From Candidatus Yanofskybacteria bacterium RIFCSPLOWO2_01_FULL_42_49 (GTDB lineage Bacteria > Patescibacteriota > Minisyncoccia > 2-02-FULL-40-12 > GWA2-44-9), in the NCBI GenBank assembly GCA_001795615.1, contig MGKI01000010.1:1-39370 (forward strand): DNA of 39,370 bases, in the 5' to 3' direction. Both the position numbers and the translations under genes were made by a program. Below, piece after piece: positions 9,417-23,703 of the stretch (positions are counted from its first letter, which is position 1; each line of letters starts with the position of its first letter). Below the pieces are notes generated by a model. The model did not search any database. It had not been told where the DNA came from and saw only the letters and a list, made by a program, of their open reading frames with translations.

Positions 9417-10352
9417 TTACCGACTCATAAATAATTTAATCTTTTGAGAGACTACTTTTTTGACCTCTTCAACCGCTGGCCCCAGATATTTGTAAGGGGT
9501 GGTTTCACTGGGTTTATCGTGAAAAACCTTATGCATACCCTCTTTATAAGCAACCCTTAATTCTGTGTTGAAATGGACATTCGTTATCCCCGCTTTTATG
9601 GCCGCCGATACATTATCATCACTTAATCCTGAGGCACCATGGAGTACGAAATAAACCCTGGGTATTGCCTCAATTATTCTTTTAAAATGTTCTATGTCCA
9701 GCCTCTCTTCCTGTTCGGTAACAATCCCATGAATATTTCCAAAAACAACCGCCAACTGGTTAACTCCGGTTTTTTCAACAAATTCTTTTGCTTCCTCTGG
9801 CTTGGTAAAGTCAGCAGGCGTTATCTCAATTTTTGTTTGTACTTGAGAAGAACCTTTCAAATATCCTAACTCACCTTCCACTAAAATATCGGGGCTGACT
9901 GACCGAGCGTAGTCAACAATTTTTTTAGTAATGATCACTTTTTCCATCAAATCAGACGCACCTGCCCCGTAGTGTGATTTCGATTTATTATTGCCGAAGG
10001 CATTCGAAATCTCTACTACGGGGTCGATTATGACCGAATCATAGCCCACATCTATAGCCTCTTTGCATTTATCAAAACTCTTAAAATGGTCGGCGTTGAG
10101 AAAAACCGGAAAATTCAATTCTTCCCGCAGTGCTTTAACCAAAGCAACGGCCTCTTTAAGCCCGATGAAATCTGACTCTCCTTCAGATGTACCGACCATA
10201 ACTGCCGGCGCACCCGCTTCTTTTGACGCTTCAACAATCCCTCGAAGAACATCAGCTGTCGAGAAGTTAAAATGACCAAGAGCGTAGGCATTCTGCCGAG
10301 CTTGTTGTAGATAGTAGTTAAGATTTTTACTATTATTTTCTTTAGTTTCCAT
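9417..10352 (-). CDS. fba: Class II fructose-bisphosphate aldolase with in-frame palindromic insert
   Basis: Would split fructose-1,6-bisphosphate, or a related ketose bisphosphate, into DHAP and an aldehyde with zinc. Zinc/substrate motifs: NADHFKSFDKCKEAID (residues about 85-100), a second-shell EGELGYLKG, FGNIHG, and LHGASGLSDDNV with zinc and phosphate ligands. The listed ORF starts at TTG (10361). I prefer the ATG three codons in, giving 311 aa. Residues about 114-132 (PVVEISNAFGNNKSKSHYG) replace the normal direct D-G-S-x-x-x-x-x-E-N-I link of the family. They are encoded by a 59-bp palindrome, so they are almost surely a repeat insert at a surface loop. The gene stands between rplY and the 419-aa unknown, on the same strand. 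Substrate could be another bisphosphate (tagatose type). Confidence 0.9.
   Translation of the reverse strand: METKENNSKNLNYYLQQARQNAYALGHFNFSTADVLRGIVEASKEAGAPAVMVGTSEGESDFIGLKEAVALVKALREELNFPVFLNADHFKSFDKCKEAIDVGYDSVIIDPVVEISNAFGNNKSKSHYGAGASDLMEKVIITKKIVDYARSVSPDILVEGELGYLKGSSQVQTKIEITPADFTKPEEAKEFVEKTGVNQLAVVFGNIHGIVTEQEERLDIEHFKRIIEAIPRVYFVLHGASGLSDDNVSAAIKAGITNVHFNTELRVAYKEGMHKVFHDKPSETTPYKYLGPAVEEVKKVVSQKIKLFMSR
9965..10023. repeat. Palindromic element inside fba
   Basis: CCCCGTAGT-gt-GATTTCGA ... TCGAAATC-tct-ACTACGGGG: two nested arm blocks of 9 and 8 bp, with unpaired bases between them and a loop of about 20 bases. The frame is kept across it. Confidence 0.85.
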
Positions 10353-10361
10353 GTTTGGCAA

Positions 10362-15572: not shown

Positions 15573-16097
15573 TTAAAACTTAGAAATTCTTCTAACATGT
15601 CTCTCCTGTCCGGAAAACGGCGTTTCCAACCAAAGTTTAATGATTTTTTTTGCAATATTATAATCTACAAAAGAAGCGCCTAATGACAAAACATTGGCAT
15701 TATTGTGCTCGCGAGACAATTTGATGAGTTTTTTAAAAATAGAAAATTCTAAATTTTGCACAGTTGCGATAACTCCCGTTCCAAAAAGCAACCATTTAAA
15801 CCATGACATTTCTTTAAACTGATAAGGCGGACCATAAAACACCGCCGCCCTTACGCCCTTATATCGATTGGCGACCATCGCTTCGCCTTGGCCGGAGGCG
15901 CCTAATATAATCCCTCGACTTCGCTCAGGATCATTCGCAACCGCTTCTGCGGCTTTGCGAATGAAATCAGAATAATCATCGTCTTTGTTGTATTCAAAAG
16001 CGCCCATATCCTCATACTCATATCCCCACTTTTCCAGCCATTCTTTAATCTTGTTTTTTAGTTCGAATCCTCGATGGTCGGAAGCAAGATAGATCAA
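15573..16097 (-). CDS. rpiB: Ribose-5-phosphate isomerase B
   Basis: A 174-aa RpiB/LacA-type isomerase that would convert ribose-5-phosphate to ribulose-5-phosphate, the step before Rpe. Motifs: YLASDHRGFELKNKI at the N-terminus, GASGQGEAMVANRYKGVRAA (about 67-86) and NANVLSLGASFVDYNIAKKI (about 130-149). The catalytic cysteine of the E. coli type (ICGTG) is replaced. The G-x-G-E pattern matches the mycobacterial/plant type, in which a Glu acts as the base. The residues NDPERSRG come from a dispersed repeat word. The start is TTG, because the heptamer array at 16095 runs right up to codon 1. The C-terminal ISKF and stop are in an AATTTCTAA repeat as well. Confidence 0.9.
   Translation of the reverse strand: MIYLASDHRGFELKNKIKEWLEKWGYEYEDMGAFEYNKDDDYSDFIRKAAEAVANDPERSRGIILGASGQGEAMVANRYKGVRAAVFYGPPYQFKEMSWFKWLLFGTGVIATVQNLEFSIFKKLIKLSREHNNANVLSLGASFVDYNIAKKIIKLWLETPFSGQERHVRRISKF
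15912..15932. repeat. Dispersed repeat word inside rpiB
   Basis: CCCTCGACTTCGCTCAGGATC. I know this kind of word (CCTGAGCGAAGTCGA) as a frequent interspersed repeat in many bacterial genomes. Its kin CCTGAGCTTGTCGAACGGG is in trxB. It encodes DPERSR in frame. Confidence 0.65.
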
Positions 16098-16168: not shown

Positions 16169-17149
16169 TCATTTTATTTTATTCAAATACTGAACCGCCG
16201 ATAAGGCGGCTATACACCCTTGTCCGGCCGCTATTACTATTTGCTTAAAAGGCACATCGGTCACGTCGCCGGCGGCATAAAGACCGGGGATGACCTGCCC
16301 TGAGCTTGTCGAACGGGTTTCGCAATTGGCGTTGACCACTATTTCCCCAAATTGATTCTTTTCTGTTTCTTTGGGAGCTAAATCAGAGTTGGGAATTTGT
16401 CCTATATGGACAAAAATGCCGTCAACTTTCAACTCATTCTCCGCACCGTTATTGTCTTCGTATTTCAAACCGGTTACAAACCCCGACGTTATAGTCGGGG
16501 CCCCGACCTCATCAGAGCGTCGGGGTTGATCTCCCATTATCTCTTTAGTCTTTGCTTCATAAATTATCTCTACATTTGTTTTGGTTTTTAAGTTATCAAT
16601 CAAAACCTGATCGCCTTTAAATTCAAGATTTTTATTTAACACATAAACCTTAGAAGCAATATCCGCCAGCATAAGGCCCGATTCAAGAGCGGAGTTCCCT
16701 CCTCCAATTGTGGCCACAACCTTACCGTTGAAAAGAGGGCCGTCGCAGGTAGTGCAATAACTTACGCCTTTGTTTCTAAATTCTTTTTCGCCGGGGATAT
16801 CAAGTTCTCGAGAATGAACTCCGGTAGTGACTATAACGGTTTTGGCTGAATAGGTTTGGCCGCTCTCGGTTTTTAATAAAAAACTGCCGTCATTTTGTTT
16901 TTGAACGCTTTCAACCCTAGTCCCCTCCTCTGTGTCCACTTTATAGCTCTCGAGGTGTTTTCTAAACTTTTCAGCCAAGGTAATCCCATCCGTCATTCCA
17001 TCCCCAGGCCAATTGCCTATCTCCCCGGAAGTAGCCACTTCCCCGCCGAAATCTTTGGAAATAATTTTAAACTTAAGCCCGCGCCGAGCGGCATAAATAC
17101 CGGCCGTGGTTGCTGCGGCAGAGCCGCCGATAATAATTAGGTCGTACAT
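16169..17149 (-). CDS. trxB: Thioredoxin reductase
   Basis: A 326-aa FAD/NADPH enzyme that would reduce thioredoxin. FAD-binding LIIIGGSAAATTAGIYAARR at the N-terminus, NADP-domain GGGNSALESGLMLAD (about 150-164, with N for the usual D), redox-active CTTC (SYCTTCDGPLF, about 134-144) and C-terminal FAD motif GLYAAGDVTDVPFKQ. Two in-frame insertions disturb the family pattern. QPRRSDEVGAPTITSG (about 203-218) comes from a 45-base double hairpin, and RSTSSGQ precedes VIPGLYAAGDV and comes from a dispersed 24-base word. Both fall in surface loops. The mRNA leader is a long AAAAGCT tandem repeat. The thioredoxin partner is not in the window; the nearby glutaredoxin-like protein or the DsbA proteins are not obvious substrates. 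Confidence 0.93.
   Translation of the reverse strand: MYDLIIIGGSAAATTAGIYAARRGLKFKIISKDFGGEVATSGEIGNWPGDGMTDGITLAEKFRKHLESYKVDTEEGTRVESVQKQNDGSFLLKTESGQTYSAKTVIVTTGVHSRELDIPGEKEFRNKGVSYCTTCDGPLFNGKVVATIGGGNSALESGLMLADIASKVYVLNKNLEFKGDQVLIDNLKTKTNVEIIYEAKTKEIMGDQPRRSDEVGAPTITSGFVTGLKYEDNNGAENELKVDGIFVHIGQIPNSDLAPKETEKNQFGEIVVNANCETRSTSSGQVIPGLYAAGDVTDVPFKQIVIAAGQGCIAALSAVQYLNKIK
16294..16317. repeat. Dispersed repeat word inside trxB
   Basis: CCTGCCCTGAGCTTGTCGAACGGG (read as two pieces), kin to the common CCTGAGCTTGTCGAAGGG interspersed word. It encodes RSTSSGQ in frame between the conserved NCET and VIPGLYAAGDV segments. Confidence 0.7.
16481..16525. repeat. Double-hairpin element inside trxB
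   Basis: CCCCGAC-gttata-GTCGGGG directly followed by CCCCGAC-ctcatcagagc-GTCGGGG. The length is 45 bases, exactly 15 codons. A relative with the same architecture lies at 39108-39147 in the broken tRNA-Asn copy. Confidence 0.88.
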
Positions 17150-20773: not shown

Positions 20774-21508
20774 GTGACAAAAATAACTCTATTTTTGCTT
20801 TCCCTTATACTGTTGGCACCCAGGGTAGCCGAAACACAAACTCAAGATATTCAAGCGCTCAGAATCGTCACTCAGGCTTTTGAAAAAGCAAAAAAAGACG
20901 AAACTGTTAGAAGAGAAGCTCTTGTTACCAACAAAACTCACCTAATTGAAAACTTGAACGCTGACGGAAAATTCGAGTCAGTAGAAAAAGAAGCTGTTTT
21001 CAGAACTTACACCAGAAACAATAAACTCGTTGAAGAGTTAGTCAGCATTAACCCTCCGAATGTAGACACACCCAGAAACCCTGTTGCTTTCGACAAATTG
21101 CTGGATGCTTTCCTTAGCAGATTCTATTTCTTGTTAAGTCATGAGAGAGAAGAAATCGACGGCCAAAGGTGCTATAAAATCCATTTCTGGCCTAAAGAAA
21201 ATCTGCCTCCTGAAAGTGACCAAAGTGATCAAGTAATCAACCGGATAGCGGGAATAATATATATAAACGAGAAAACATCCATGGTATTGAGGATTAACGC
21301 TTCGCTAGCTCAAGAAATTAGTAAAAGCGGTTTTTGGACTTCATACCACGCAGACAAACTTGACCTTGAAATATCTTTTCAAGAGTGGCATAAGTTAGGG
21401 CTCTTGAAAAAAATAACTGCCACGGCCAGATATTCTTACAGGATTGCCATTGTCACGGTTCAACGATACCAAACACATACTCTATATTTAGGATATGAAA
21501 CAAAATAA
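20774..21508 (+). CDS. Secreted protein of unknown family, 244 aa
   Basis: I start it at the GTG at 20774, with GGAG 7 bases upstream. The listed TTG is part of the promoter. The N-terminus MTKITLFLLSLILLAPRVAETQ is a signal peptide with cleavage likely after PRVAE or close by. The mature domain begins with a helix (QDIQALRIVTQAFEKAKKDE), followed by alternating beta strands (KFESVEKEAVFRTYTRNNKLVEELV, IHFWPKEN, RIAGIIYINEKTSMVLRINASL). This is reminiscent of the half-barrel LolA/RseB-type lipoprotein-binding fold, but no motif makes that firm. It overlaps tgt by 14 bases, so the two are co-transcribed. Confidence 0.7.
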   Translation: MTKITLFLLSLILLAPRVAETQTQDIQALRIVTQAFEKAKKDETVRREALVTNKTHLIENLNADGKFESVEKEAVFRTYTRNNKLVEELVSINPPNVDTPRNPVAFDKLLDAFLSRFYFLLSHEREEIDGQRCYKIHFWPKENLPPESDQSDQVINRIAGIIYINEKTSMVLRINASLAQEISKSGFWTSYHADKLDLEISFQEWHKLGLLKKITATARYSYRIAIVTVQRYQTHTLYLGYETK

Positions 21509-22763
21509 GCAAAACCGCTCTCGTGGCGGTTTTTTCAAAATAATAAAAAAAGATAAACACACCCAGGCCCGCTTGGGCGTTTTAAGCACGCCTCACGGCA
21601 AAATAGAAACCCCCTCCTATGTAATAGTTGCGACCCGCGCCGAGATAAAATGTCTGAAACCGTCGGATATCAAAAAAACAAAAACACAGGTAGTCATAGC
21701 CAATACATACCACTTGTGGAATGAGGCTCTAAACTCTAAACTCGAAACTCTAAACAAATCCAAAACTCAAAATTCAAAAACCAAAACCTTTTTATTGAAA
21801 AAACTGGGGACAAAACTGCCGACCATGACTGATAGTGGCGGATTTCAAGTGTTTTCGCTTGGTTTCGGCAAAGAGAATAAAATCGGCAAAATTCTTAACG
21901 CCCACCCTGTGGATAATCGACTTGCGAAGTCGATTATCCACAGGAGAAAAAATATCCGAATTAGCCAAAGGGGGGTGCATTTTTTATTGGATGGCAAAAA
22001 AAGATTTCTTGGACCGAAACTATCAATGCAGATCCAAAAGAAATTGGGAGCAGACATTGTCTTTGCTTTTGATGAATGTACATCGCCTTTGGATAGTTTT
22101 GACTACAATAAAAAGGCATTGGAAAGAACACACAAATGGGCACAAGAAAGTTTAAAGTATAAAGTTAAAAGTGAAAAGTTAAGCGGAAAACGTCAATTTT
22201 TATTCGGAATAGTGCAGGGGGGGAGATATAAATCGTTAAGAATTAAAAGCTCCAAATATATCGCCTCGCTTCCGTTCGACGGTATCGGCATCGGAGGATC
22301 TTTTGGAAAAGATGAAATGGTTAAAACTATAAAGTGGGTAATCCCACACCTCCCTAAAGAAAAACCTCGTCACCTTCTGGGCATAGGCAAAATAGAAGAT
22401 ATCTTTAATGCGGTGGAACAAGGGATAGATCTGTTTGACTGCGTAATTCCCACGAGAGAAGCCCGCCACGGAAGGATTTACACCAAAAACGGGCATTTCG
22501 ATATATCAAAATTTCGAAATATCAGTATTCCCCTTGAGAAAGAATGCAAATGCCCGGTTTGCAAAGCCGGAATAACCCGAAGGAAATTATATGAATTATT
22601 CAAAGGTAGCGACAAAGAAAAACAAAAAGCCCAAAGACACGCTACAATTCACAACATTTGGTTCTTCAACAACCTTTTGGAAGAAATCCGTAAATCAATA
22701 AAAAATAATAAATTCGAGCAATTCAAAAACAAGTTCTTGAAACAATTTAGGCCCCAACCTTAG
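21495..22763 (+). CDS. tgt: tRNA-guanine transglycosylase with repeat inserts
   Basis: A 422-aa protein, larger than the roughly 370-380-aa norm. It exchanges guanine-34 of GUN tRNAs for a queuosine precursor. Family motifs: NTYHLWNEA..TMTDSGGFQVFSLG (about 74-115), FDECTSPLDSF (about 191-201), IGIGGSFGKDE, the nucleophile segment FDCVIPTREARHG and zinc ligands CKCPVC..H. Three insertions that break the family pattern are repeats. SKLETLNKSKTQNSKTKT comes from a heptamer array. VDNRLAKSIIHR comes from a 39-bp palindrome that carries two DnaA-box words. KYKVKSEKLS comes from a second heptamer array. All keep the frame. Asn and Tyr tRNAs with GUN anticodons are present here and are potential substrates. 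Confidence 0.92.
   Translation: MKQNKQNRSRGGFFKIIKKDKHTQARLGVLSTPHGKIETPSYVIVATRAEIKCLKPSDIKKTKTQVVIANTYHLWNEALNSKLETLNKSKTQNSKTKTFLLKKLGTKLPTMTDSGGFQVFSLGFGKENKIGKILNAHPVDNRLAKSIIHRRKNIRISQRGVHFLLDGKKRFLGPKLSMQIQKKLGADIVFAFDECTSPLDSFDYNKKALERTHKWAQESLKYKVKSEKLSGKRQFLFGIVQGGRYKSLRIKSSKYIASLPFDGIGIGGSFGKDEMVKTIKWVIPHLPKEKPRHLLGIGKIEDIFNAVEQGIDLFDCVIPTREARHGRIYTKNGHFDISKFRNISIPLEKECKCPVCKAGITRRKLYELFKGSDKEKQKAQRHATIHNIWFFNNLLEEIRKSIKNNKFEQFKNKFLKQFRPQP
21727..21787. repeat. Heptamer array inside tgt
   Basis: Units AAACTCT, AAACTCG, AAACTCT, AAACAAATCC, AAAACTC, AAAATTC. They use the same words as the intergenic element at 25982 (CTCTAAACAAATCC is shared). They encode SKLETLNKSKTQNSKTKT. Confidence 0.8.
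21906..21944. repeat. 39-bp palindrome with two DnaA-box words inside tgt
   Basis: CCTGTGGATAATCGACTT-gcg-AAGTCGATTATCCACAGG, 18-bp perfect arms. The same sequence in the other orientation is at 23665-23703. Confidence 0.93.
22151..22185. repeat. Heptamer array inside tgt
   Basis: TTTAAAG, TATAAAG, TTAAAAG, TGAAAAG, TTAAGCG: five units, in frame within SLKYKVKSEKLS. Confidence 0.75.
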
Positions 22764-23664: not shown

Positions 23665-23703
23665 CCTGTGGATAATCGACTTCGCAAGTCGATTATCCAC
23701 AGG
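23665..23703. repeat. 39-bp palindrome, second copy
   Basis: CCTGTGGATAATCGACTT-cgc-AAGTCGATTATCCACAGG, between the mobile element and the tk terminator. It is identical (inverted) to the copy inside tgt. Confidence 0.93.

Follow-up and report, generated by a model that had tools for sequence, protein, structure and literature searches.

The interrupted fba gene

The window, by which we mean the whole 39,370-nucleotide stretch of DNA analyzed from Candidatus Yanofskybacteria bacterium RIFCSPLOWO2_01_FULL_42_49, includes a gene for fructose-bisphosphate aldolase (fba) that carries a palindromic DNA segment within its coding region. The gene product matches PF01116 (E = 2.6e-62), and class II aldolases are its closest solved structures. 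The features of the locus are as follows.

9417..10361, minus strand: fba, class II fructose-bisphosphate aldolase (PF01116), with in-frame cassette interruption
9961..10023, minus strand: 63-bp cassette composed of the 59-bp palindrome and a 3' tail (CAGG), encoding PVVEISNAFGNNKSKSHYGAG after a conserved Asp; delimited by sister copies and by empty sites in relatives
9965..10023, minus strand: 59-bp nested palindrome with three levels, identified by arm search and folding
9965..9973, plus strand: outer arm CCCCGTAGT, 9 bp
10015..10023, plus strand: outer arm ACTACGGGG, 9 bp
9976..9983, plus strand: inner arm GATTTCGA, 8 bp
10004..10011, plus strand: inner arm TCGAAATC, 8 bp
9992..10002, plus strand: apical hairpin TGCC-GAA-GGCA, 4-bp stem
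9961..9964, minus strand: CRRG tail (CAGG), a feature of the fba-type subfamily that takes the place of a target-site duplication

The initial annotation had placed a palindrome, its arms 9 and 8 bp long, at positions 9965-10023, and our search returns exactly this interval together with both arm pairs, CCCCGTAGT/ACTACGGGG and GATTTCGA/TCGAAATC. The third level, formed by the apical hairpin, had escaped it. Arms of 7 bp of this kind are expected by chance only 0.06 times per window. When folded as RNA, the palindrome is predicted to reach -30.5 kcal/mol compared with a mean of -14.65 for shuffled sequences (z = -5.4, 0 of 200 shuffles).

As proposed, the extra residues follow an Asp where family members have none, and relatives there show Asp followed by [GAES]S. 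The reading frame is also preserved, with the cassette spanning 63 bp or 21 codons. The original estimate of about 19 extra residues agrees with the net difference in a MAFFT alignment, whereas sister copies define a unit of 21 residues. Likewise, of the boundaries described as clean, the right-hand flank is only partly so, as the next ~10 residues differ from those of relatives as well. In a structure model of the aldolase, suggested as a further check, residues 113-133 are predicted, with low confidence, to form a loop linking a barrel strand to the helix that follows. The insert thus appears as a loop, but the model derives from a two-sequence alignment (mean pLDDT of 62, insert below 50, some other segments equally poor) and is too weak to prove surface exposure.

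Other dispersed repeats lie in the same window. A 39-bp palindrome (CCTGTGGATAATCGACTT..), present in 13 copies in the genome, occurs at 21906-21944 and 23665-23703, with the former copy in frame inside the gene for tRNA-guanine transglycosylase (tgt; 21495-22763). Two CCTGTGGATAATCGACTT palindromes also flank the only RAYT gene of the genome (G000:C1, locus L058). In-frame segments in the genes for thioredoxin reductase (16283-16324, RSTSSGQ) and ribose-5-phosphate isomerase B (15903-15938, NDPERSRG) are encoded by short repeats of a third type, TCGAC-NN-GCTCAGG, with 10 copies in the genome. Inserts of dispersed repeats are therefore found in four housekeeping genes within 39 kb: fba, tgt, and the genes for these two enzymes.

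Empty and occupied fba sites in relatives

The aldolase locus is syntenic across relatives, and we aligned the aldolases of 29 of them at the insertion site. Alignment with close relatives had been recommended at the outset, and most prove to lack the insert: the site is empty in 27, where the conserved Asp is followed at once by the next helix, beginning with [GAEST]S or similar residues. Removing 63 bp from the interrupted gene and joining the flanks gives SVIID|ASDLMEKV. The same residues encoded without a palindrome would have pointed away from an inserted repeat; the sole other aldolase that has them, from relative G006 (83% identical), carries the palindrome as well. Between these two genera, the inserts are identical at about 18 of 21 residues. 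The apical hairpin TGCC/GGCA has become TACC/GGTA in G006 (coding strand), a paired change from G-C to A-T that alters one amino acid and retains the fold.

In the remaining relative, G027, that codon is occupied by another palindrome, 56 bp long, with a CAAG tail; its ends, CCCCGT...ACGGGG, are the same as those of the fba cassette described above. Its congeners G012, G021 and G025 have fba sites without any such insert and, judged from these sequences, fba was struck independently in G027. Another small insert, RLRQGSGGQG, is present ~20 residues further on in the aldolases of G026 and G012 (L022:1861-1905 and L027:1858-1902), where it is encoded by another GC-rich hairpin.

In a tree of fba sequences, the present genome (G000) groups with G006 (support 90/87). 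A tree of the next gene instead groups G006 with G002, and the neighboring genes give groupings other than that of fba. Plain vertical descent of the insert by genus is rejected given the disagreement of these trees, whose support is modest. Because of this conflict, genes have likely been exchanged or lost to some extent. The tree topologies, modestly supported as they are, make a single inheritance of the insert-bearing fba probable, with later exchange or loss in some lineages.

Sister copies of the fba-type cassette

The initial annotation had viewed the insert as a repeat carried as a peptide, and had recommended a genome search for the 59-bp palindrome. This search shows that the palindrome is dispersed and lies in frame within other genes. 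In this genome (807 kb, 93% complete), two near-identical copies (E = 3e-21 and 2e-17) of the 59-62 bp element lie within gatB and a 192-amino acid ORF with no Pfam match, in both cases in frame. Relatives carry copies in fmt (two species, same site), in the genes for ribonucleotide reductase and a SpoU methylase, and in an acetyltransferase-like gene.

The gatB site is empty in relatives, and fba, fmt and gatB all encode the expected protein again once 63 or 66 bp are taken out. Thus, the fba insert is a 63-bp cassette of 21 codons. The joined flanks read NGD|TETGVTI in fmt, which we take to be the motif expected of this enzyme, and LLSFD|KL at the third restored junction. The SpoU methylase copy yields no clean empty site upon removal (+62 bp).

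All in-frame copies of the fba type share a single orientation and frame (P-V/E-V-E-I ... H-Y-G), and a class-wide search of 286 genomes finds this subfamily restricted to the nearest relatives. None of 11 copies is bordered by an exact 4-5 bp duplication, whereas C-R-R-G follows the palindrome in 10 of the 11. In fba, fmt and gatB, the length beyond the palindrome corresponds exactly to the four bases of this tail. We suggest that the fba-type unit may include one old target repeat. An FAD oxidase gene and a glycosyltransferase gene contain a 59-bp relative of the cassette, each translating it in a different frame.

A wider family with insertion footprints

The fba cassette belongs to a wider family in Patescibacteria, in which the core GTAGTAGA...TCACTAC is nearly constant. 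A near-invariant GTAG tag lies within the arms, with CTAC as its mirror image at the opposite end. Sequence varies freely in the 4 bp flanking the core and in the inner stem, while complementarity is kept: inner arms have 7.7 of 9 positions paired (null 5.3) and outer arms 3.76 of 4 (null 2.55). Units are 58 bp or longer, mostly 59-90 bp. A covariance-model census (E<=0.05), compiled from search tools and selected stretches, places the element in 16 of 28 family genomes, with about 12 places in the present genome. Copies are numerous in G002, G006, G012 and G027, whereas G003, G018 and G025 have none. When GTDB species genomes were scanned with an exact pattern, 65 stretches were returned (chance expectation ~4), nearly all of them from Parcubacteria or other Patescibacteria. 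Spread by viruses was rejected, as the CCCC and CCAG types had no match among 2.9 million viral contigs.

Exact target-site duplications of 4-5 bp border 27 of 39 wider-family copies that are not of the fba type and 40 of 60 GTDB copies, compared with about 2.4 when flanks are re-dealt. The 4-bp duplications conform to a YNNR consensus, with T or C as the first base in 54 of 56 and A or G as the last base in 54 of 56. These duplications around most wider-family copies indicate behavior like that of a MITE. Removal of the element plus one duplication yields open proteins for NDH-2 (EPI|KIAVIGAGF), a TsaC-like Sua5/YrdC protein (KKLN|FPLTGTSA) and MiaA. The NDH-2 gene has been struck at two different sites in congeners G000 (L170) and G001 (L191), each with a TAAA duplication. 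Some copies are intergenic and also show insertion footprints. In G006, two copies of the element family lie <150 bp apart in opposite orientation (L069:2136-2288, contig C5).

Nature and mobility of the insert

We consider it very probable that the fba insert is a copy of a small, dispersed, non-coding palindrome that moves from site to site in this bacterium and its relatives, and that adds a loop of 21 residues to the protein where it has landed in frame in a gene. Mobility is indicated by the fact that the element is repeated, is missing from most relatives at the corresponding position, and is found in several unrelated genes. A recombinase or transposase probably recognizes the paired ends (GTAGTAGA and TCACTAC within the fold-back arms) and moves the element, with the fba-type subfamily presumably traveling as the palindrome plus its 4-nt CRRG tail into GA^C sites. 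Because 63 bp keeps the frame and one frame is open, insertions in loops of essential proteins would survive selection. What persists would then be the DNA fold-back, a selfish element whose presence in protein loops is tolerated. Selection is unlikely to act on the encoded peptide, which most likely has no function, given that the frame differs between the two genes with the related 59-bp cassette.

Given the 0 of 11 duplications, the fba type may move differently from the wider family. A more specific proposal, which we regard as tentative and rather doubtful, is that the fba type is a specialized in-frame cassette whose length is a multiple of three, which inserts at GA^C, behind an Asp codon, with no duplication of the target, and whose tail derives from an earlier donor site. 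If true, a recombinase acting on a self-complementary hairpin with freely drifting arms would constitute a new mode of transposition.

Among the loci examined, we found neither an autonomous element nor a mobilizing enzyme gene with the same ends. One candidate was a locus in Candidatus Wolfebacteria NORP133 (L103) whose ends, 1.2 kb apart, resembled those of an autonomous transposon; it was rejected as two separate 132-bp copies around ordinary genes. These two TTCA-flanked relatives of 132-133 bp (L103:1571-1702 and 2663-2795) enclose a two-gene segment, and composite mobility of this segment is possible.

Another potential mobilizer is the genome's own RAYT, an HUH/Y1 tyrosine transposase (PF01797), which would make the element a GTAG-tagged REP. 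The near-invariant GTAG tag and the RAYT-like genes in G000, G001, G006 and G007 fit this proposal, as does the known link of GTAG-tagged REPs to RAYTs (PMC3733652). However, Y1_Tnp is absent from G027, G021, G012 and G019, which have 16, 11, 15 and 9 strand-matches, respectively, and the RAYT gene of the present genome is flanked by another palindrome family, CCTGTGGATAA. Moreover, HUH/Y1 transposition, to our knowledge, makes no target-site duplications, and yet 4-5 bp duplications accompany the wider family. The absence of RAYT from four element-rich genomes, the other flanking palindromes and the duplications lead us to reject this proposal as very improbable.

A structured RNA, regulatory or terminator-like and selected at the mRNA level inside genes, would account for the strong folding and covariation, but palindromes fold equally well as DNA. 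An Rfam search brought no family near threshold, and copies with insertion footprints are spread over unrelated genes as well as intergenic sites, which makes a selected RNA very unlikely. Least plausible is a selected regulatory or binding loop of the aldolase with palindromic coding by chance, for although the insert is retained in two genera at about 18 of 21 identities and comes after a conserved Asp that closes a barrel strand, it is missing in most relatives, recurs in gatB, fmt, ribonucleotide reductase and other genes, and has related cassettes read in other frames.

As a mobile palindrome read through as protein, the element is of a known kind, that of protein-coding selfish palindromes, here in another bacterial phylum. 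In-frame selfish palindromes have so far been treated mainly as a specialty of the Rickettsiales, and a 2024 review regarded a similar process shaping the proteins of other prokaryotes as only conceivable (PMC10969869). In the literature available to our search, we found no report of such elements in Patescibacteria. Here, evidence in this phylum comes from empty sites, target duplications and independent strikes on one codon. The process is visible in a phylum of small genomes and touches glycolysis, translation initiation, tRNA amidation and nucleotide metabolism. Essential enzymes that tolerate 21 added residues form a natural series, through which one can ask how reduced genomes acquire protein sequence.

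Comparison with known systems

Rickettsia palindromic elements (RPEs) and their Wolbachia counterparts (WPEs) are small dispersed palindromes of reduced genomes, many of which interrupt essential or housekeeping genes while keeping the frame; copies shared by orthologues are inherited, and different elements sometimes occupy the same locus (PMC3767692, PMC10969869). The likeness to RPEs drawn in the initial annotation holds as an analogy, in that both are palindromic repeats with several copies per genome, inserted in frame in unrelated protein genes. Membership is not indicated, since tag, length and host differ. RPEs are about 100-150 bp (PMC3733652, PMC3767692) compared with 59-66 bp here, RPE-4 and RPE-6 of R. 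conorii carry a CGTC tag (PMC3733652) rather than the GTAGTAGA core, and the hosts, Rickettsiales and Patescibacteria, belong to different phyla. The clear 4-5 bp duplications of the wider family are a further difference in this comparison, which draws on published descriptions of RPEs.

GTAG-tagged REPs associated with RAYT transposases share a GTAG tetranucleotide beside a palindrome as well as known intragenic copies (PMC3733652). Their tag marks one end of a palindrome of 20-40 bp, whereas that of the Patescibacteria element is internal and mirrored at both ends of a longer unit. In addition, the latter is abundant in RAYT-free genomes and is accompanied by duplications.

MITEs resemble the element in having terminal inverted repeats and in encoding no protein themselves. 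The 4-5 bp target-site duplications are a match in the wider family (27/39 and 40/60) but not in the fba type (0/11). Furthermore, the terminal bases of the element vary with compensation, and no autonomous parent was found among the loci examined. Finally, the coupling sequence of some conjugative transposons resembles the 4-nt tail of the fba-type cassette, if this tail is donor-derived as proposed.
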